The notes under the pieces: generated by a model
The model's database searches: none
What the model saw: only the letters and a program-made list of their open reading frames with translations
Told to the model about the DNA's origin: nothing
DNA from: Ignavibacteriota bacterium
GTDB taxonomy: Bacteria > Bacteroidota > Ignavibacteria > UBA10030 > UBA6906
DNA length: 42,535 nt
Assembly: GCA_003152875.1 (NCBI GenBank)
Contig: PMBF01000009.1
Span: forward strand, 75,213 to 117,747
Reading direction: 5' to 3'
Made by a program: the position numbers and the translations under genes
Part shown: positions 28,164 to 42,535 of the stretch, one piece after another
Numbering within the stretch: the stretch's first letter is position 1
How the letters are laid out: every line of letters starts with the position of its first letter

Positions 28164-29960
28164 TCACGCGGCCTCCAGACCGGCCGCTGCCACAACGCAG
28201 GCGAATCGCGCGTGATCGATGGTTTCTTCTTCCAGCAGCACCTGGCGGAGCGCTTCGAGGGCCCGGGCATCGCTCCCGACGATCTCCTGTGCTGTACGGA
28301 GTCCATCAGACAGAATCCGCTCGACTTCCTCGTCGATCCGCAGTTCGGTGTGGACTGAATACTCGCTCAGGAAATCCCCCCTGCCACCCTGTGCGCCCCG
28401 CTCCAGACACACCACCGGGCCAATCCGGCTCATCCCAAGCTGTCGCACCATCTTTCGAGCGATCGAAGTCGCCCGCTCAATGTCGTTGGCGCTGCCGGAG
28501 GCGAACGAACCGAGCATCCGCTCCTCGGCGACACGCCCTGCCATAAGCACGGCAATCTGAGATTCCAGGTACTCTCGTGAATACATGTTGCGGTCGTGGT
28601 CCGGCAGCTGCATGGTGATGCCCAGAGCCGATCCGCGCGGAATGATCGACACCTTGTGGACGGGGTCCGCCGCCGGGAGGCGGAAGGCCGCCAGAGCATG
28701 CCCGGCCTCATGAATCGCAATCCTTTCGCGCTCGGGCTCCGTCATGACGGCAGAAGTTCTCTCGACCCCCATCGTGACTTTGTCACGAGCAGTTTCAAAA
28801 TCCGCCATCCGCACCTCTTCCCTCCCCTCGCGCGCAGCCGACAGCGCAGCTTCGTTCACAAGGTTCGCCAGCTCCGCGCCGGTCATGCCGGGAGTGCCCC
28901 GCGCAACTTTGTGAAGATCCACGTCCGGGAACAGCGGCGTTCCACGTGTGTGCACCTCAAGGATCCTTCGCCTTCCGCGGATGTCGGGGCGGTCCACGGT
29001 GACACGCCTGTCAAAACGCCCTGGACGCAGGAGCGCCTCATCGAGGACGTCGTGCCTGTTCGTCGCCGCCATCACGACGATCGTCGCATGCTGGTCGAAG
29101 CCGTCCATCTCCACCAGGAGCTGGTTCAACGCCTGCTCGCGCTCCTCGTTGTGTCCGTTTGAAGGTCCCCCGCGCTGCCGGCCGATGGCATCAACTTCAT
29201 CGATGAACACGATGCAGGGGGCAGCCTTCCTGGCCTGCGCAAAGAGATTTCTCACGCGGCGGGCTCCAACGCCAACGAACATCTCAACAAATTCCGAGCC
29301 CGATATCGCATAGAACGGCACACCGGCCTCCCCGGCAACCGCTCGCGCCAGCAAGGTCTTCCCCGTGCCCGGAGGACCGACCAGCAGCACCCCGCGCGGG
29401 ATCCGGCCGCCAAGGCGGGTGAACCGCTCCGGCGTCTTCAGGAATTGCACGATCTCCTGCAGCTCGTTCTTGGCCTCATCGACACCGTCGACGTCGATGA
29501 ACTTCACCGGCGAGGTCTCGAGATTGACCGCCTTCCGGGCTTCGGTGCCGAAGGCTCCCGGGTTCTTTCTGACAAGGACAAAGAGAAGCCCGCCCAGGGA
29601 AATCGCCATCACCAGAGTCGTGGCCACCTGAACCGGATCGACGCCGCCAGAGGAGGCAAACCGCACGGCGATGCCGCGCTCCGCAAGCCGGTCCGCAAGT
29701 GCCGCCTGTGTCGCCCCGTTCGGCACTTCGCCCGTGAAATGTGCGCCGGATGTCAGCTCACCGGCAATTCTCGCCCCGTCGAAAGAGACCTCTTTCACGT
29801 CTCCCGACTTTGCATGGCTCATGAGGGTTGTGTAATCCAGCTGCAGGACCTGTGAAGGGTCGCCGCGAACCACAACATAGAGACCGCAACCGGCCGCGAC
29901 ACACGCCCCCCCCACGATCAACATCAGCTTCGTTTTCGTTTTTCCACGGAAATTCCACAT
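28164..29960 (-). CDS. ftsH: ATP-dependent zinc metalloprotease FtsH
   Basis: Membrane-anchored AAA+ protease degrading membrane and regulatory proteins. 598 residues: TM1 about 12-31, periplasmic FtsH-ext domain, TM2 about 110-130. Walker A is GPPGTGKT (195-202), Walker B is [10 protein letters not shown], and the second region of homology has [19 protein letters not shown]. The zinc site is HEAGH (417-421) with Asp in SANDIERAT. Start at 29960 set by GGGGAG 6 nt upstream; a longer frame exists but lacks support. The C-terminus is short, without the long tail of some FtsH. Confidence 0.97.
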
Positions 29961-30131
29961 GTTTTTCTCCCCGCTCCTTATGAGTCTCCAGAGCACAGGT
30001 GCAATCCCCGTACCAGACTTGGGTGACAGAAACAGGGGGCGCGGCGGCAAATTCAACAGCTTTTGAGCGGGAAGTAATGTAATTTGTACAAAGCTCAGAG
30101 CCCCGGACGAACGGGCGCACACCTACAACAC

Positions 30132-36441: not shown

Positions 36442-38019
36442 ATGCCAGCCTCACGAAGCCTTGGTGCACTCGCAATCCTGCTCGCACTGCTCTCCTGCGG
36501 CAAAGATCCCGCTGCCTCACCTCCACGCCCCCTCTACGGCGGAACACTGAAACTCGCCGTCTCAGATCCCGTGGAGAGCCTTGATCCTCAGTCCATTCGC
36601 TATGACACGGACTGGTTCGTGGCATCCATGATCTTCGAGGGGTTGACAGCGCCCGGTTCATTGCCGGATTCGGTCGAACCCCTCCTTGCAGAGTCCTGGA
36701 CGCGCATGGATGGCGGGGCACGGTGGCTCGTGAGACTCCGCTCAGGAGTGAGGTTTCAGGACGCCCCTTGTTTCCCGGAAGGAAAAGGGCGTGAAGTCAC
36801 GGCGGATGACATCGTCTTTACCTTCACACAGGCGCTCAGAAGAGACTCAACAAACATCAGTCCCGGCCCGATTGCCGCCCGCATTGCCTCAGTGCGCGCG
36901 CTTGACCGCAACACCGCGGAGTTCACTCTCACCCGCCCCTATGTGACGTTCCTGAAACTCCTCTCCACACCCCCCGCGTTCATCATTCCCCATGAGAGCG
37001 CCGGATTCTATGGCCGCAAAACCTCCGTGCATCCGGTGGGGACGGGGCCATTCAGACTTGCCGTCTGGGAGAACTCCGGAGACATCATCCTGGTCAGGAA
37101 CCCTTCCTACTGGAGACGAGACAGCCTTGGACGAGACCTCCCCTACGTAGACGAGATCTCCATCCGGTTAACCGGCAACCCTGCGCTCTGTATCCCGCTC
37201 TTCCTGAAGGGGGAGACGCACTTCCTTGTTGTGAACGAGTCCGAAATACGTCAGCTTCGCTCAGGCAGCGGAGCCTCTTTCATGGTGACCACCGTTCCCG
37301 AGGGTTTGACTGTCCGGTTCTTCGGCATCAGCATGGATCCTCATTCTGCCCTTGGCCGGCGCCCGGCGCTGCGGCGAGCGCTCGCCGCCTCGTACAACCG
37401 TTCTGCCCTTATCCGGGAGCTGAAGGGAGTTGCCCTCGAAGCGTCCACCCTTGCCCCGCCGCATCTTATCGGCACGACAGCTGCTGGCACGGTTCCCCGG
37501 CCCGATCCTTCAAGGTTTCCTCAGGGAGACCCTCTCCCTGCACAGCTGACGATCTCCACCACCATACGCTCACCCGACGTCGATCGTCTTGCTGCCGCGG
37601 TAAAGGACCTTGGGATGACTCCCGTGTTGAACGTGAAGGTGGACGAATACTATGAACACGTCGTCAGGGAGCGACCGGACCTCTTCAGGGTGAGCATGCA
37701 GCCCCTCTTTCCCGATCCCGAAGAGTACTACGCTTTCTTCTCTTCGAAGAGTCCGGCTTCGGTGAATCTCACGGGCTACCGAAGCGCAGCATACGATTCC
37801 GTCTTCGATCAATCGACCATCGAACAGGACTCCGGCCGGCGGCGCTTGCTGTTCCGGCGGCTCGAATCGATTCTGCAGCGCGATGCTCCGTTGGTTCTCC
37901 TCACCCACGAGGGACCGCGCCACTACGTTGTCCCCGGCTTTGTGCGCGGGCTGGTCCTCCGCTTCACCACCCCCGACTTCGCCCTGATCTGGCTGGATCG
38001 ACATGAAGACGCCCGCTAA
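36442..38019 (+). CDS. ABC-type peptide/nickel solute-binding lipoprotein (family 5)
   Basis: 525 residues with a lipobox (ALLSC, Cys about 19). SBP family 5 features: GGTLKLAVSDPVESLDPQSI at the mature start, IFEGLTAPG, PLLAESWTRMDGGARWLVRL, GVRFQD, VTADDIVFTFTQAL and VGTGPFRLAVWE. It belongs to the DppA/OppA class that binds peptides or other solutes outside the inner membrane. No permease or ATPase genes lie beside it. Instead its 3' end overlaps the sensor kinase by 17 nt, which suggests it presents ligand to the kinase. This is inference from order only. Confidence 0.9.
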   Translation: MPASRSLGALAILLALLSCGKDPAASPPRPLYGGTLKLAVSDPVESLDPQSIRYDTDWFVASMIFEGLTAPGSLPDSVEPLLAESWTRMDGGARWLVRLRSGVRFQDAPCFPEGKGREVTADDIVFTFTQALRRDSTNISPGPIAARIASVRALDRNTAEFTLTRPYVTFLKLLSTPPAFIIPHESAGFYGRKTSVHPVGTGPFRLAVWENSGDIILVRNPSYWRRDSLGRDLPYVDEISIRLTGNPALCIPLFLKGETHFLVVNESEIRQLRSGSGASFMVTTVPEGLTVRFFGISMDPHSALGRRPALRRALAASYNRSALIRELKGVALEASTLAPPHLIGTTAAGTVPRPDPSRFPQGDPLPAQLTISTTIRSPDVDRLAAAVKDLGMTPVLNVKVDEYYEHVVRERPDLFRVSMQPLFPDPEEYYAFFSSKSPASVNLTGYRSAAYDSVFDQSTIEQDSGRRRLLFRRLESILQRDAPLVLLTHEGPRHYVVPGFVRGLVLRFTTPDFALIWLDRHEDAR

Positions 38020-39874
38020 CAGGCTTCGCAACAGGGTCGTGCTTCTGAGCGCGGGCTCCACCGGCCTCCTGCTCGCCGTCGCCGTCGCATTCATGCACAT
38101 CTCCGGCGTCAGCCGGGTCTACGAACGGGCGGCAGGACGCGTCAAGAGTGACGGCGCCTCGTTTGCCGTGGAATTCACGCGGGCGATCGAAGCGTCAGCC
38201 GTCGAATTGTCGGCAATGCGGATGAACTCCCCAATGAGCCCTGGCCCGGGCGCAGAGCCGGCAACCGACACCGCGTTGGTCGGCAACCTCAGGGCGCTGA
38301 TGCAGGCATACCCCTCCAGGTACGAGGAAGTGACCCTGGGGGGAACGCCTGGAAGGCATACCCGGCGCATGTCTCTTGTCAGGGCATTTGACGGGGAGTA
38401 CCACCTGCGAATCGACGACGGAGGCACCGAGCCGGCATCCCTGTCGTTCCGGTTGTCCGCTGCCCGCAGCCTCCGGGACCTGGCGTCCGAGTGCACAGCC
38501 GGCGTGCGGGGGACCTCCGTTGCGCTTCATGTTCCTCCCTCCGGGCACCTCTGCGCCTTGGGCGCATCGCTCAGCATTGCGGAGCTGACGGAAGCCGTCC
38601 TCTCACAATCGGCAGGCATATTCGCCTCCATGCCGATCGTCATCGATTCCGGCGGTGTGGTCATGTACAGTCCGACTCCAGTCGACAGAGGCCAGAGGCT
38701 TTCGGTCGTCCGGCCCGAAACCGCCGGACTCCCGGCTGGGCTCGCAACCTCGGAAGCGGTGCGACGAGGCGATCTGCTGTTCGCCCGGCAGCCCCTCCTG
38801 GACGGAACGCTGTTCGTCATCATGCTCTATGACTCGGAGCGGGATGTCCGCGACATTGAAGCCATGACACTGCGGGCCAGTCTGCTGGCGTCGGCCCTCC
38901 TCGTGGCCGTCACCCTCATCCTCCTCGTGCTTGCCGGGAGGTTCTCGCGATCGCTCCGGGAGGTGACACATGTCGCGCGGCAGGTCGCTTCAGGCGACTT
39001 CAGCCGGACCATCCCCAGCTGGCGGGATGATGAGCTCGGCGTGCTGATTGCGGCCTTCAACGACATGGTGTTCAGGCTCCGCGATACCTATGCAGAGCTC
39101 AACCGCGCCAATCTCGACCTGGAGCGGAAGGTCGATGAGCTGACACGAACCCGCACCGAGCTTTCGCGCAGCCAGAGGCTCGCCTTGATCGGCGAAACTG
39201 TATCGAGGATATCGCATGAGATCCAGAACAAAGTCGGGGGGATCAGCATCTGGGTGCAGAACCTTGAGCTGCAGACTGCCCGGAATCCTCTCACTTCCGT
39301 GTACGTCGCGGAGGTGAAAAAGGCTCTCTCATCATTCCTCTCGATGCTGGTGAGTTTCAAGCGGCTGTACCGCCAGCCGCAGCTCGAACCGCGGTCTTTC
39401 GACGTCTCCTGTCTCGCGCAGCGGCTTGCAGACGGGATGAATTCATCCCGTGAGGGTCCCCGGGTCCTCTTCCATGCCTGGCCTCCCGATCGGCCCATCC
39501 GGATCACAGCGGACCCGGAACGCTTGCAGGAGGCTCTGGAGAACCTGCTGCTCAACGCCATCCAGCATTCCCCTGACGGATCAACGATTGATCTCTGTGT
39601 GGGACCGGAAGATGGGGTCCTCCTCATCACAGTTGCCGACCGGGGCCCCGGCGTCCCCGAATCCATCCGGGAACGGCTCTTTCAACCTTTCGTCACTACC
39701 AGACACGACGGGAGCGGACTCGGTCTTGCCATCGCCCACGCTGTCATCACCTCCCACAATGGAACGCTGAGCTACAGCCCGAGGGAGGGTGGGGGCTCCA
39801 GTTTCGAGATTCGTATTCCCGCATGCATCGAACCATGCCAACAATCAAACCATGAAAATCCTGATCGCGGATGA
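38003..39874 (+). CDS. Membrane sensor histidine kinase (NtrB/AtoS-like)
   Basis: 623 residues: TM1 about 12-33, a large extracytoplasmic domain about 34-288 with no recognised family, TM2 about 291-312, HAMP about 313-365, and a coiled coil. The DHp helix has phosphoacceptor His405 in RISHEIQNKVGG. The ATPase has the N-box ENLLLNAIQHS, G1 DRGPGVPE and G2 GSGLGLAIAHAV. The HEIQNKVGG form is close to the kinases that pair with NtrC-type regulators. The 3' end overlaps the regulator gene by 23 nt, confirming pairing. Confidence 0.95.
   Translation: MKTPANRLRNRVVLLSAGSTGLLLAVAVAFMHISGVSRVYERAAGRVKSDGASFAVEFTRAIEASAVELSAMRMNSPMSPGPGAEPATDTALVGNLRALMQAYPSRYEEVTLGGTPGRHTRRMSLVRAFDGEYHLRIDDGGTEPASLSFRLSAARSLRDLASECTAGVRGTSVALHVPPSGHLCALGASLSIAELTEAVLSQSAGIFASMPIVIDSGGVVMYSPTPVDRGQRLSVVRPETAGLPAGLATSEAVRRGDLLFARQPLLDGTLFVIMLYDSERDVRDIEAMTLRASLLASALLVAVTLILLVLAGRFSRSLREVTHVARQVASGDFSRTIPSWRDDELGVLIAAFNDMVFRLRDTYAELNRANLDLERKVDELTRTRTELSRSQRLALIGETVSRISHEIQNKVGGISIWVQNLELQTARNPLTSVYVAEVKKALSSFLSMLVSFKRLYRQPQLEPRSFDVSCLAQRLADGMNSSREGPRVLFHAWPPDRPIRITADPERLQEALENLLLNAIQHSPDGSTIDLCVGPEDGVLLITVADRGPGVPESIRERLFQPFVTTRHDGSGLGLAIAHAVITSHNGTLSYSPREGGGSSFEIRIPACIEPCQQSNHENPDRG
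39432..39451. repeat. Perfect 20-bp palindrome within the kinase gene
   Basis: ACGGGATGAA followed by its exact reverse complement TTCATCCCGT, no loop. It carries the same GGGAT/ATCCC core as the repeats at 6753-6817 and 33868-33890, and encodes part of DGMNSSREG in the kinase. Confidence 0.6.
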
Positions 39875-41243
39875 CGACTCGACGACCCGGAGAGGAATCG
39901 AGGCATTCCTGAACGCAGAGGGCCACACCGTGACCGCCGTGGCAGACGGCCGGGAAACGCTCAATGCCATCCAGCGGGAAGGGTTCGACCTGCTCCTTCT
40001 TGACGTCCGCATGCCAGCCCTGGACGGGCTGGCGGTTCTCAAAGAGATCCGCAACCGGAAGCTGCCGCTCCCATGCCTTATCATGACCGCGTATGCCACG
40101 GTCGAGGATGCAGTCACGGCAATGCGGATCGGAGCCGACGACTATCTGACAAAGCCCCTGAACCTTGAGGAACTGGGCATCAGAATCGGCCGCCTGCGTG
40201 ACACCTCGGCGCTCCGCGCAGAAAACCAGGAGCTGCGCAGACGGCTCCTCGAACGGGACAATCCCACGCTTGTAGGCGAAAGCCGGACGATGACGGATGC
40301 AAAGCGGATGATCGCAAGGGTCGCCGCTGATCCTGATGTTTCTCTCATCATCTACGGTGAAAGCGGGACCGGGAAAGAGCTGGCCGCGAGGTCGGTCCAC
40401 GCCCAGGGGTCGCGTTCATCACACCCCTTCGTGGCCGTCAATTGCGCAGCCCTGCCTGACACCCTCCTTGAGAGCGAATTGTTCGGCTATGAACGGGGAG
40501 CCTTCACCGGCGCATTCCGGAGCAAGATCGGACTCTTCCAGGCCTCCCAGGGGGGGACACTCTTGCTCGACGAGGTCGGGGAGATGAGCTCTCCCATGCA
40601 GGCCAAACTCCTCCGCGTGCTCCAGGAACGGGAAGTCCAGCCACTCGGCAGTACCGCTCCTGTCCCCTTTGATGCCAGGGTGATCGGCGCATCGCGCGCC
40701 GACCTTAACGCTCTGATGCGTGCCGGGAAGTTTCGCGACGACCTCTTCTATCGCCTGAATGTCGTCGAGATCCATCTCCCTCCCCTCCGGGAAAGGCCGG
40801 AAGATGTGCCCGCACTCGTGGATCACTTCCTGCAGGAACGCGAACGCAAGGATGGTCGGCGCATCAGGTTCAACGCCGAGGCCCTCGAAGCACTCGGTCA
40901 GTATGGCTGGCCCGGCAATGTCCGGGAGCTGCAAAACGTCGTCAGTACCCTCTTCGTGACCGCAGAAGCGGAAACTGTCCGCTTGGCCGATCTCCCGCTC
41001 CGCCTCCTTGACACCCGGGCCGCTACACCCGGCATCTCCCCTCCACCCTGGATCTCCTCTCCTTTCACGGAGGCTCTCCGGGAAATGGTCCGTCAGTTCG
41101 AACGGGAATACTTGCTCTATCACATCAACAGGAACAACGGCAATCTCACAAAAACGTCTGAGGCCATCAGGCTCTCACGTGTTACGCTTCATAAGAAGAT
41201 CCGGGATCTTGGACTTGAACCTGCACGTCCCAAAAAATCATGA
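39852..41243 (+). CDS. NtrC-family sigma-54-dependent response regulator
   Basis: 463 residues. The receiver (1-115) has an intact acidic pocket (ADDDS), phosphoacceptor Asp51 in LLLLDVRMPALDG, and Lys101. The AAA+ domain has Walker A GESGTGKE (169-176), the sigma-54 contact loop GAFTGA (216-221), Walker B TLLLDE, and the arginine-finger region. The C-terminal Fis-type helix-turn-helix includes NLTKTSEAIRLSRVTLHKKI. All elements needed to open sigma-54 promoters are present. ATG at 39852 matches the receiver start; the longer frame overlaps the kinase without support. Confidence 0.96.
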   Translation: MKILIADDDSTTRRGIEAFLNAEGHTVTAVADGRETLNAIQREGFDLLLLDVRMPALDGLAVLKEIRNRKLPLPCLIMTAYATVEDAVTAMRIGADDYLTKPLNLEELGIRIGRLRDTSALRAENQELRRRLLERDNPTLVGESRTMTDAKRMIARVAADPDVSLIIYGESGTGKELAARSVHAQGSRSSHPFVAVNCAALPDTLLESELFGYERGAFTGAFRSKIGLFQASQGGTLLLDEVGEMSSPMQAKLLRVLQEREVQPLGSTAPVPFDARVIGASRADLNALMRAGKFRDDLFYRLNVVEIHLPPLRERPEDVPALVDHFLQERERKDGRRIRFNAEALEALGQYGWPGNVRELQNVVSTLFVTAEAETVRLADLPLRLLDTRAATPGISPPPWISSPFTEALREMVRQFEREYLLYHINRNNGNLTKTSEAIRLSRVTLHKKIRDLGLEPARPKKS

Positions 41244-41360
41244 CCCTCGAAGATAAGACTTCTTTACACTGATAAGTCCCCTTTACGCCATCCCCGTTCT
41301 TGTTGACGTCCCCTCCCACGTTTTTCGCCGAGTTTCGCCGTTTCCCACTCCACCTTGCTC

Positions 41361-41378
41361 CTGGCACGCTGCGTGCAA
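41361..41378 (+). promoter_or_regulatory. Sigma-54 (-24/-12) promoter
   Basis: CTGGCACG, 4 nt (CTGC), GTGCAA. The invariant GG and GC are exactly 10 nt apart, and all but one base of TGGCACG-N4-TTGCA match. It lies 117 nt after the NtrC-type regulator stop and points at the pseudoreceiver gene, with a predicted start near 41390. Confidence 0.8.
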
Positions 41379-41424: not shown

Positions 41425-41817
41425 ATGGACTCCACACTTATCACCCAGACAGCATCCCTGCTCCCCTCGTTGCTCGTCATGGAGCCCGAGACGAGCCAGC
41501 GCAAGGGTATAGCGGTGGCAGTGCTGGACCATGTCCATGAAGTGCGTCTCACCGGCAGCATGGCCGAGGCCATCCGCTGTTGCATGGAGAGGCCGTTCAC
41601 CGTGGCGTTGCTCTCCCTCGACCTCGCCGATCCCCCTTCATGGGAACAGCTCGGGGCTTTTCGCGCTGCCGCCCCCGCCTCCCGGATCATCATCGCTGGA
41701 CCTCAGATCACAGACACAGGCAGGCTCGCTCAATTCGGAGTCCGCACTGTCCTCGAACAGCCTCTCGATGTCAGAGGACTTTTGTCAGTTTTGTCCGAAC
41801 GGGAACCCTTACCCTAA
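41425..41817 (+). CDS. Degenerate receiver-domain (pseudoreceiver) protein
   Basis: 130 residues that follow a CheY-like pattern: strand one SLLVMEPE, a strand and helix VRLTGSMAEAIRCCMERP, then FTVALLSLDLADPPSWEQL. RIIIAGPQ and VRTVLEQPLDVRGLLSVL complete it. The phosphoacceptor position is Ser64 (LLS where LLD is expected). The acidic pocket reads MEPE, and the conserved lysine is Gln112 (EQPLD for TKPLD). It is therefore unlikely to be phosphorylated and may act as a protein-binding partner. No Shine-Dalgarno site is obvious. It follows the sigma-54 promoter and precedes the exported protein by 15 nt. Confidence 0.7.
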   Translation: MDSTLITQTASLLPSLLVMEPETSQRKGIAVAVLDHVHEVRLTGSMAEAIRCCMERPFTVALLSLDLADPPSWEQLGAFRAAAPASRIIIAGPQITDTGRLAQFGVRTVLEQPLDVRGLLSVLSEREPLP

Positions 41818-41832
41818 ACCAACGGAGGACCC

Positions 41833-42535
41833 ATGCACCAGTTCCATGCTCACCATCTGTTGAAGAGGATGATTTGGATTCTGTGCACAGCCCTGAGCGT
41901 GTATTCGGCTCAGGCCCAGATCACGATCACCTCATCCGATATTCAGTCCGTCTATACCACCGGCAACTCCCTGAAATCGTTGCTCGCCCTCGGACCCCTG
42001 ACCATCACGGTCGGTGATCCTTCATCATCCCCGCAAATCTGGGACTTCCGGGATATCGCCTTCGCCGACGCCGGCGTCATCGATCCCGTCGCTCCATCTG
42101 AGGCCCCTGCAATCCCGGACTTTTCATCCGCAAACTGTGTCCTTCGCGAGACGCTGGATGATTCAACCGGGATTCCGCTCATGGTCTACACCTACCATTC
42201 GCTCACCTCCACCGAGTACAGCATGCTCGGCATGTGTGGCGACTCGGGAAAATACGTCATACGCTACCGCCCCCCCGTCTCCCAGATGAAGTTCCCTTTC
42301 CATATGGGCCTTTCCTGGACCCAACAGTCGCCGCCAGAGACGACCGAGGTCATTCCCGGCTACTCTATCATCACGACAACATCCCACAATCACTCGGTCG
42401 ACGCCTTTGGCACCCTCCGGCTGCCCGATGGAGACTACGAAGTTCTCCGCGACAAGGTGGTAACCGTCGCGGAGACCGAGACGCAGATGGGGAAGTCCCG
42501 GTCCAAGGGAATCACCTATAACTTCGTGACAATCG
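41833..42535 (+). CDS. Exported protein of unknown function, N-terminal part
   Basis: 234 residues are visible and the frame is open to the window edge. ATG at 41833 has a strong CGGAGG site 5 nt upstream. A signal peptide with hydrophobic core MIWILCTALSVYSA is followed by QAQITITSSDIQSVYTTGNS. The mature part is rich in beta-type sequence (SVDAFGTLRLPDGDYEVLR, HMGLSWTQQS) as in large secreted proteins of T9SS bacteria. No family recognised; a C-terminal sorting domain could lie beyond the window. It is second in the sigma-54-driven unit. Confidence 0.85.
   Translation, partial: MHQFHAHHLLKRMIWILCTALSVYSAQAQITITSSDIQSVYTTGNSLKSLLALGPLTITVGDPSSSPQIWDFRDIAFADAGVIDPVAPSEAPAIPDFSSANCVLRETLDDSTGIPLMVYTYHSLTSTEYSMLGMCGDSGKYVIRYRPPVSQMKFPFHMGLSWTQQSPPETTEVIPGYSIITTTSHNHSVDAFGTLRLPDGDYEVLRDKVVTVAETETQMGKSRSKGITYNFVTI

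Follow-up and report, generated by a model that had tools for sequence, protein, structure and literature searches.

Background

Genes encoding sigma-54 activators usually lie close to their targets, and most activator sites are located 100–250 bp upstream of the promoter, as stated in the available portion of one survey (PMC6615313). In the part of a second report at hand, the promoter consensus is given as TGGCAC-N5-7-TTGCT, and validated promoters deviating from it are on record (PMC12316311). Two single-domain proteins acting on two-component kinases are described in the accessible sections of their reports. Osp of Rhodobacter sphaeroides, a single-domain regulator that has neither the acidic pair nor the lysine, is activated by CtrA and inhibits the kinase CckA (PMC9430884). 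FixT of Caulobacter is a single-domain receiver exerting negative feedback on a two-component kinase (PMC7078487). A literature search combining Ignavibacteri, sigma54 and two-component found nothing; among the matches listed for single-domain regulators and sigma-54, none, judging from titles and the starts of abstracts, deals with the arrangement described here.

Organization of the locus

The window, which is the whole stretch of DNA analysed, measures 42,535 nucleotides and derives from an Ignavibacteriota bacterium. The following features, all on the plus strand, mark its last part:

36442–38019, plus strand: extracellular solute-binding protein, family 5 (PF00496, E=1.7e-44)
38003–39874, plus strand: membrane sensor histidine kinase (PF02518, HATPase_c, E=5e-26; PF00672, HAMP, E=2e-14)
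39852–41243, plus strand: NtrC-type response regulator (PF00072, PF00158, PF25601, PF02954)
41362–41377, plus strand: most likely sigma-54 promoter, TGGCACG-CTGC-GTGCA, 119 nt after the regulator stop; transcription start expected at about 41388
41425–41817, plus strand: ORF130, a degenerate receiver-like protein of 130 aa, first gene downstream of the promoter
41833–42535 and past the window end, plus strand: putative secreted protein, second gene of the presumed operon, with GGAGGA before its ATG and a 15-nt gap to ORF130

The three upstream genes overlap, by 17 nt (solute-binding protein and kinase) and 23 nt (kinase and regulator). The N-terminus of the solute-binding protein contains the motif LLALLSC, which we take to be a lipobox and hence presumably a lipoprotein-like N-terminus. 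The overlap of its gene with the start of the kinase gene suggests that the binding protein is a possible co-sensor for the kinase. The latter features hydrophobic segments at about residues 11–40 and 285–318, as seen by hydropathy, and the H-box-like motif SHEIQNKVGG. The regulator is made of a receiver, an AAA+ sigma-54 interaction domain with Walker motifs A and B and the GAFTGA sequence, and a Fis-type HTH.

The probable promoter site

The consensus of sigma-54 promoters is TGGCACG-N4-TTGCA. Searching the window sequence, the 16-nt stretch TGGCACGCTGCGTGCA, or TGGCACG-CTGC-GTGCA, is found at 41362–41377 of the plus strand. The GG (41363–41364) and GC (41375–41376) dinucleotides are separated by 10 nt (GG-N10-GC). 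The only mismatch to the consensus is a G replacing the first T of TTGC: the -24 element and the spacing are exact, and the -12 element reads GTGC. The original prediction had placed a near-consensus sigma-54 promoter just after an NtrC-type gene, and rpoN, the protein domains, the genome-wide excess of correctly spaced sites and the recurrence of the arrangement agree with it. The site was right, and its coordinates (41361–41378) carried one extra base at each side. The term near-consensus conceals a weak point, as the -12 sequence GTGC shows no enrichment in this genome.

The site resides in the 181-nt gap between the regulator (39852–41243) and ORF130 (41425–41817). It is intergenic, in the same orientation as ORF130, and its end is 47 nt from the ORF130 ATG; the first start codon of ORF130 is 37 nt past the expected start of the transcript. 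It is also the top-scoring sigma-54-like site of the window. By a weighted score, the weights of which were set by hand, sites scoring at least as high are expected 1.1e-4 to 2.4e-4 times in the gap on this strand, and 0.06–0.12 times over the whole window on both strands. An unweighted search of the window allowing up to 3 mismatches yields 37 matches against 37.06 expected, which is chance; the case for the site rests therefore on its closeness to the consensus and on its place.

These figures bear on an alternative according to which the resemblance is fortuitous, the site is unused, and ORF130 is co-transcribed with the genes of the solute-binding protein, kinase and regulator. The whole-window expectation leaves room for such a coincidence, but the expectation in the gap and on the proper strand is against it. 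A search of the 181-nt gap revealed neither a terminator-like nor a sigma-70-like sequence, so that read-through from upstream is possible, in keeping with co-transcription.

The second-best site of the window, TGGTACG-GGGA-TTGCA, is located on the minus strand at 30000–30015. It ends 39 nt before a likely ATG at 29960, which comes after AGGAGCGGGGAG. The gene downstream (28164–29960) encodes an FtsH-type protease with M41 peptidase and AAA domains. The site falls inside the gene only if the longest frame is considered, and upstream of it if the ATG at 29960 is the start; it may be a sigma-54 promoter of the protease gene.

Sigma-54-like sites in the genome

Absence of rpoN had been named in the original prediction as evidence against the promoter. 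A profile search of the genome identified the gene (PF04552, E=6.2e-58; C32:3338–3811), which sits on the same contig and whose product carries the RpoN box ARRTVAKYR. A genome scan had also been proposed, and it reveals that the correct spacing is over-represented. In the 3.96-Mb genome the sequence TGGCAC-Nk-TTGC occurs 4, 1, 8, 3, 19, 5, 3, 6 and 9 times for k from 1 to 9 (58 matches), and the 19 sites at k=5, the sigma-54 spacing, compare with a mean of 4.9, an about four-fold excess. By a test in which every frame is taken from its earliest start codon, so that sites are over-called as internal, 9 of these 19 sites are outside ORFs of at least 80 aa, and all 9 precede a same-strand ORF by 2–145 nt; none of the 17 sites found at the control spacings k=3 and 9 is outside such ORFs. 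The other 10 sites at k=5 are inside an ORF, 7 of them on the other strand, so that not every k=5 site need be a promoter.

The GTGC variant behaves differently from TTGC. Matches to TGGCAC-Nk-GTGC number 11, 4, 9, 5, 7, 2, 7, 5 and 7 for k from 1 to 9 (57 matches in this genome): 7 are at k=5 and the other eight spacings average 6.25, which makes no excess. Across 41 genomes, TGGCACG-N4-GTGCA accounts for 14 of 134 matches, the other spacings for 6–12 each except N2 (49); the corresponding figures for TGGCACG-N4-TTGCA are 25 of 132, and 6–17 except N2 (27). Since the GTGC variant is not in excess, the sequence alone leaves doubt on the site, and a chance resemblance gains from this; the position favours a promoter. 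Six of the seven genomic TGGCAC-N5-GTGC sites lie within open frames of at least 80 aa, and the sole exception is 41362–41377, which argues against coincidence. Two of the other GTGC sites (L146 and L147) are 107 and 192 nt from the start of the frame, and a later true start is possible for them; at the control spacings k=3 and 7, GTGC sites are outside ORFs in 2 of 16 instances.

A variant with a shorter spacer, TGGCACG-NN-GTGCA (often TGGCACGTCGTGCA), is over-represented about five-fold relative to other spacings in the 41 genomes, and is sometimes present in several copies on one contig.

Repeats in the gap and the dyad within the site

Repeated sequences upstream of the -24 element are candidate sites for the binding of the activator:

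41323–41340, plus strand: TTTCGCCG twice, starting at 41323 and 41333, the candidate activator site of the original prediction
41252–41267, plus strand: first copy of a 16-nt direct repeat, GATAAGACTTCTTTAC, possible activator half-site
41271–41286, plus strand: second copy of the 16-nt direct repeat, GATAAGTCCCCTTTAC

The two copies of TTTCGCCG are found 10 nt apart, as had been reported. Their proposed role as activator sites is not supported: the pair is only 22–39 nt upstream of the -24 element, and exact repetition of an 8-mer within 30 nt is at chance level (P=0.115, 2000 first-order shuffles of the gap). A scan of the genome for the octamer repeat TTTCGCCG-N2-TTTCGCCG, also suggested at that stage, retrieves nothing beyond the pair in the gap when at most 1 mismatch is allowed, and 11 copies at 2 mismatches versus 3 for the reversed control, a mild excess. 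The heptamer GTCCCCT, the other repeat pointed out, occurs at 41276 as indicated, but its second copy is at 41308 rather than 41312; four further places on the plus strand of the window feature it. The 16-nt repeat is 76–110 nt upstream of the promoter, and is thus better placed than the TTTCGCCG pair. A repeat as good is found in shuffled gaps with P=0.119 (2000 first-order shuffles), which is not significant. With at most 1 mismatch allowed, the pair has no second occurrence in the genome, where one lone copy at 1 mismatch is found elsewhere. Neither the TTTCGCCG pair nor the 16-nt repeat goes beyond chance.

A dyad with 6-bp arms, GCACGC-T-GCGTGC, spans 41364–41376, inside the promoter site. 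The very base which deviates from the consensus, G for T, helps make the dyad, of which only two perfect copies exist in the genome, one being that at 41364–41376. The dyad might accordingly be an operator for some unrelated dimeric regulator, whether repressor or activator, with the likeness to a sigma-54 promoter as a by-product. Dyads with up to 1 mismatch are barely commoner than the reversed control (24 versus 19 per strand), and the dyad was rejected as a recurrent operator. A lone dyad would moreover leave the place of the site, after an activator gene, unexplained. An operator is therefore very improbable.

Sigma-54-like sites downstream of activator genes

The sigma-54 activator domain is matched 19 times in the genome, and for 17 of these matches the fetched stretch includes the stop codon of the gene. 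A same-strand site is found within 300 nt downstream of 3 of the 17 genes, at 119, 120 and 185 nt, but as the first of these is 41362–41377 itself, independent cases are 2 of 16. The opposite strand has none in this interval. Four sites are present in the other 108 kb of scanned strand. The site at 120 nt, TGGCACG-TCTC-TTGCA, agrees with the consensus throughout and precedes a 104-aa ORF; that at 185 nt, TGGCATC-CTCT-TTGCT, precedes a 156-aa ORF. In 14 of the 17 genes no site is present in the following 300 nt.

The arrangement was also analysed in 99 loci hosting relatives of the regulator (34–44% identity), 19 from a search of 21 genomes, and 80 corresponding to the best 80 of 520. Seven of 12 strict same-strand sites fall 0–300 nt after the regulator stop, in 7 of the 99 loci, the sites elsewhere including those probably located in the Walker-A region; strict sites on the opposite strand are 0, and 92 of the 99 loci lack a strict site in the 0–300 nt interval. 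By inspection, two loci with a looser site look like textbook pairs: in one (L075) the activator is followed by what we take to be a P-II-like gene, and in the other (L119) by what is presumably a pilin gene. The closest relative of the regulator among the matches listed is 44% identical, and the best 80 of 520 may omit records very near the genome of the window. The site could not be footprinted in orthologues because the relatives listed do not exceed 44% identity, which leaves a point to chance resemblance.

Some sites lie about 820–860 nt before the stop of the relatives' regulators, and hence inside the gene. By our codon reading they probably fall at the conserved Walker-A region, and we take them as false positives. 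A stretch of the relatives' NtrC-type genes, probably this region, often spells a sigma-54-like sequence, as TGGCCCG-N4-CTGCA, and gives rise to false promoter calls.

Clustering of sites at the same place relative to activator genes speaks against a fortuitous resemblance, which, taken with the data on the gap and the genome, we regard as unlikely. The most likely reading of 41362–41377 is that of a genuine sigma-54 promoter, and it is fairly well supported. A promoter after an activator gene is an ordinary genetic layout; the receiver-like target, and the parallel in a few relatives, lift the finding slightly above routine.

ORF130 and the putative secreted protein

The base composition of ORF130 by codon position resembles that of neighbouring genes. 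Matches to ORF130 were found in 3 of 41 genomes, none of which is of the same genus; one genome is its own, and in each of the other two ORF130 matches the receiver domain of a larger regulator (E=9.2e-5 and 7.4e-4). ORF130 scores 17.4 bits to a regulator-receiver profile, versus at most 2.3 bits for 200 shuffles; Pfam Response_reg is not reported for it at E up to 5. Modelled by AlphaFold2 as a single sequence, the protein gives a poor result (pLDDT 39.7); modelled with 15 aligned receivers, it adopts a (beta-alpha)5 fold (pLDDT 87.8), which is support rather than proof, since the receiver alignment could steer the model toward a receiver fold. By title, almost all of the 50 PDB matches to the model that were listed, out of 334 (E<=0.001), are receiver domains. 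Among the matches listed, the best E-value is that of a CpaE-type protein, and the best TM-score (by query), 0.78, that of Spo0F. Sequence and model agree in that ORF130 looks like a stand-alone degenerate receiver.

Phosphorylatable receivers feature an acidic pair after beta1, an Asp after beta3, a Thr or Ser after beta4, and a Lys after beta5. In the alignment, ORF130 has E-P at the acidic pair, S at the phospho-acceptor Asp, a gap at the Thr and Q at the Lys. A D is found two residues past the S, and is paired with the Asp in another alignment. ORF130 is probably not phosphorylated, because most phosphorylation residues are missing.

The gene that follows encodes in full a putative secreted protein of 344 aa (L002:9046–10080). 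The C-terminus matches Por_Secre_tail, a secretion C-terminal sorting domain, with 21.5 bits, below the 27-bit cut-off. The gene contains two N residues at L002:9749–9750, probably a scaffold join, and the frame across them is uncertain.

The presence of this gene, only 15 nt on, and the loss of the conserved phosphorylation residues suggest another reading of the operon, in which the promoter is equally real and only the role of ORF130 differs. ORF130 would be an output of the system, for example a connector to another pathway, or a decaying gene, and the operon would exist for the sake of the secreted protein. Other lineages have different genes behind the promoter, which fits this reading. 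The small receivers found in relatives at the same position, described below, speak against it. We give this reading serious weight, at somewhat short of an even chance.

Small degenerate receivers in relatives

In two genomes, G025 and G027, a kinase/NtrC-type pair is followed by a sigma-54-like site and a small degenerate receiver gene. The two small receivers match Pfam Response_reg with E=1.7e-3 and 1.2e-3, respectively, below the curated cut-off. A profile made from these proteins and ORF130 was run against 98 genomes of the order. The five best matches are in G027, G025, G042, G000 and G064, that in G000 (ORF130 itself, 2.1e-45) being circular as the profile contained ORF130. A sigma-54-like site is 33–63 nt upstream of the receiver in these five loci, out of 30 examined and including that of the window. 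In three additional genomes (G047, G044 and G032) the site is 302–341 nt upstream, and in 22 of the 30 loci there is none within 700 nt upstream. Independent lineages are few, because G042 and G064 belong to the same genera as G027 and G025.

Ten of these proteins, once aligned, feature a common S-P-D motif, and keep the Asp and the Lys. ORF130 was considered as a member of the SPD-type family, on account of its position and of the profile that contained it, and rejected, since a profile built from the proteins of the other 29 loci, with ORF130 left out, gives it 0.2 bits. Pairwise BLASTP among ORF130 and the small proteins of G025 and G027 was not significant. The SPD-motif receivers of the order are, like ORF130, stand-alone, degenerate and near an NtrC-type gene, but their sequence family differs; the likeness, as far as can be read from sequence, is one of position and kind, not of family. 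A separate SPD-type locus is present in the genome of the window, on a different contig (C57). The regulator of this locus is 61–73% identical to 5 of 6 relatives' regulators compared, and that of the window 36–40% identical to all seven compared. The SPD loci that were read are often flanked, unlike the window, by genes for UspA-like and CxxCH-containing proteins (names by inspection).

In several genomes (L199–L206) a cluster is made of a PAS-type kinase, an NtrC-type regulator, an SPD receiver, and UspA-like and CxxCH-containing proteins, names being mostly by inspection; a sigma-54-like site follows the regulator in some. The small receiver at C57:26362–26721 (L205, this genome) was matched across one TGA. 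In two relatives, sigma-54-like sites are found near the start of the kinase gene (L200, about 8359, minus strand; L201, about 4876, plus strand), a hint that the kinase/regulator pair may be autoregulated.

A few relatives have degenerate receivers of another sequence family at this position, and the recurrence makes more sense if a receiver-like product serves a purpose there. Pushed further, NtrC-type systems of the order would repeatedly put a degenerate receiver under the sigma-54 promoter of their own regulator, in at least two sequence families, as a convergent kinase-decoy circuit. We regard this extension as rather doubtful.

Proposed mechanism

In the model that we favour, a signal would reach the membrane kinase (38003–39874), perhaps via the solute-binding lipoprotein encoded just before it, and signalling by the kinase would lead to phosphorylation of the NtrC-type regulator (39852–41243). 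The regulator would bind at some place before the -24 element, possibly within the 118 nt that follow the stop codon of its gene, and its GAFTGA loop would make sigma-54 RNA polymerase open the promoter at 41362–41377. Transcription from about 41388 would then cover an operon made of ORF130 and the putative secreted protein. ORF130 would finally, as its likeliest role, feed back on the kinase, for example by docking as a mimic of the real receiver, as the analogy with known proteins suggests. The model as a whole, with a regulator-driven sigma-54 promoter and ORF130 as a feedback partner of kinase and regulator, appears to us quite probable. It is built on sequence, domains, the presence of rpoN, the genome-wide excess of the proper spacing, the recurrent arrangement, and the receiver-like sequence and modelled fold of ORF130; from these we infer the start of the transcript, the binding of the regulator at the gap and the feedback role. 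The regulator gains a concrete target in this lineage, and the locus provides a test case for receiver-like decoys under sigma-54 control limiting NtrC-type signalling.

Comparison with known systems

The locus shares with the pattern of a sigma-54 promoter beside the gene of its enhancer-binding protein, as outlined in the available portion of the survey, the -24/-12 elements with GG-N10-GC spacing, the adjacent upstream activator, the GAFTGA motif and rpoN (PMC6615313). It differs from this pattern, to the extent covered there, in the GTGC at -12, in having no convincing activator repeat, and in its targets, a receiver-like and a putative secreted protein (PMC6615313).

According to the accessible part of its report, Osp is, like ORF130, a stand-alone receiver-like protein without acidic pair and lysine (PMC9430884). 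Expression under the output of a two-component system is shown for Osp and presumed for ORF130. Osp differs from ORF130 in retaining the aspartate and in depending on CtrA, instead of sigma-54, for its activation. Inhibition of a kinase is likewise shown there for Osp, on CckA; ORF130, known from sequence and model, is likened to it by its features (PMC9430884). FixT resembles ORF130 in consisting of a single receiver domain and in being tied to a two-component system, and binds an Fe-S cluster, as described in the section at hand, where sigma-54 does not come up (PMC7078487). If the feedback proposed for ORF130 is true, the idea that emerges from Osp and FixT, which in these texts are tied to other regulators, would extend to sigma-54 systems.
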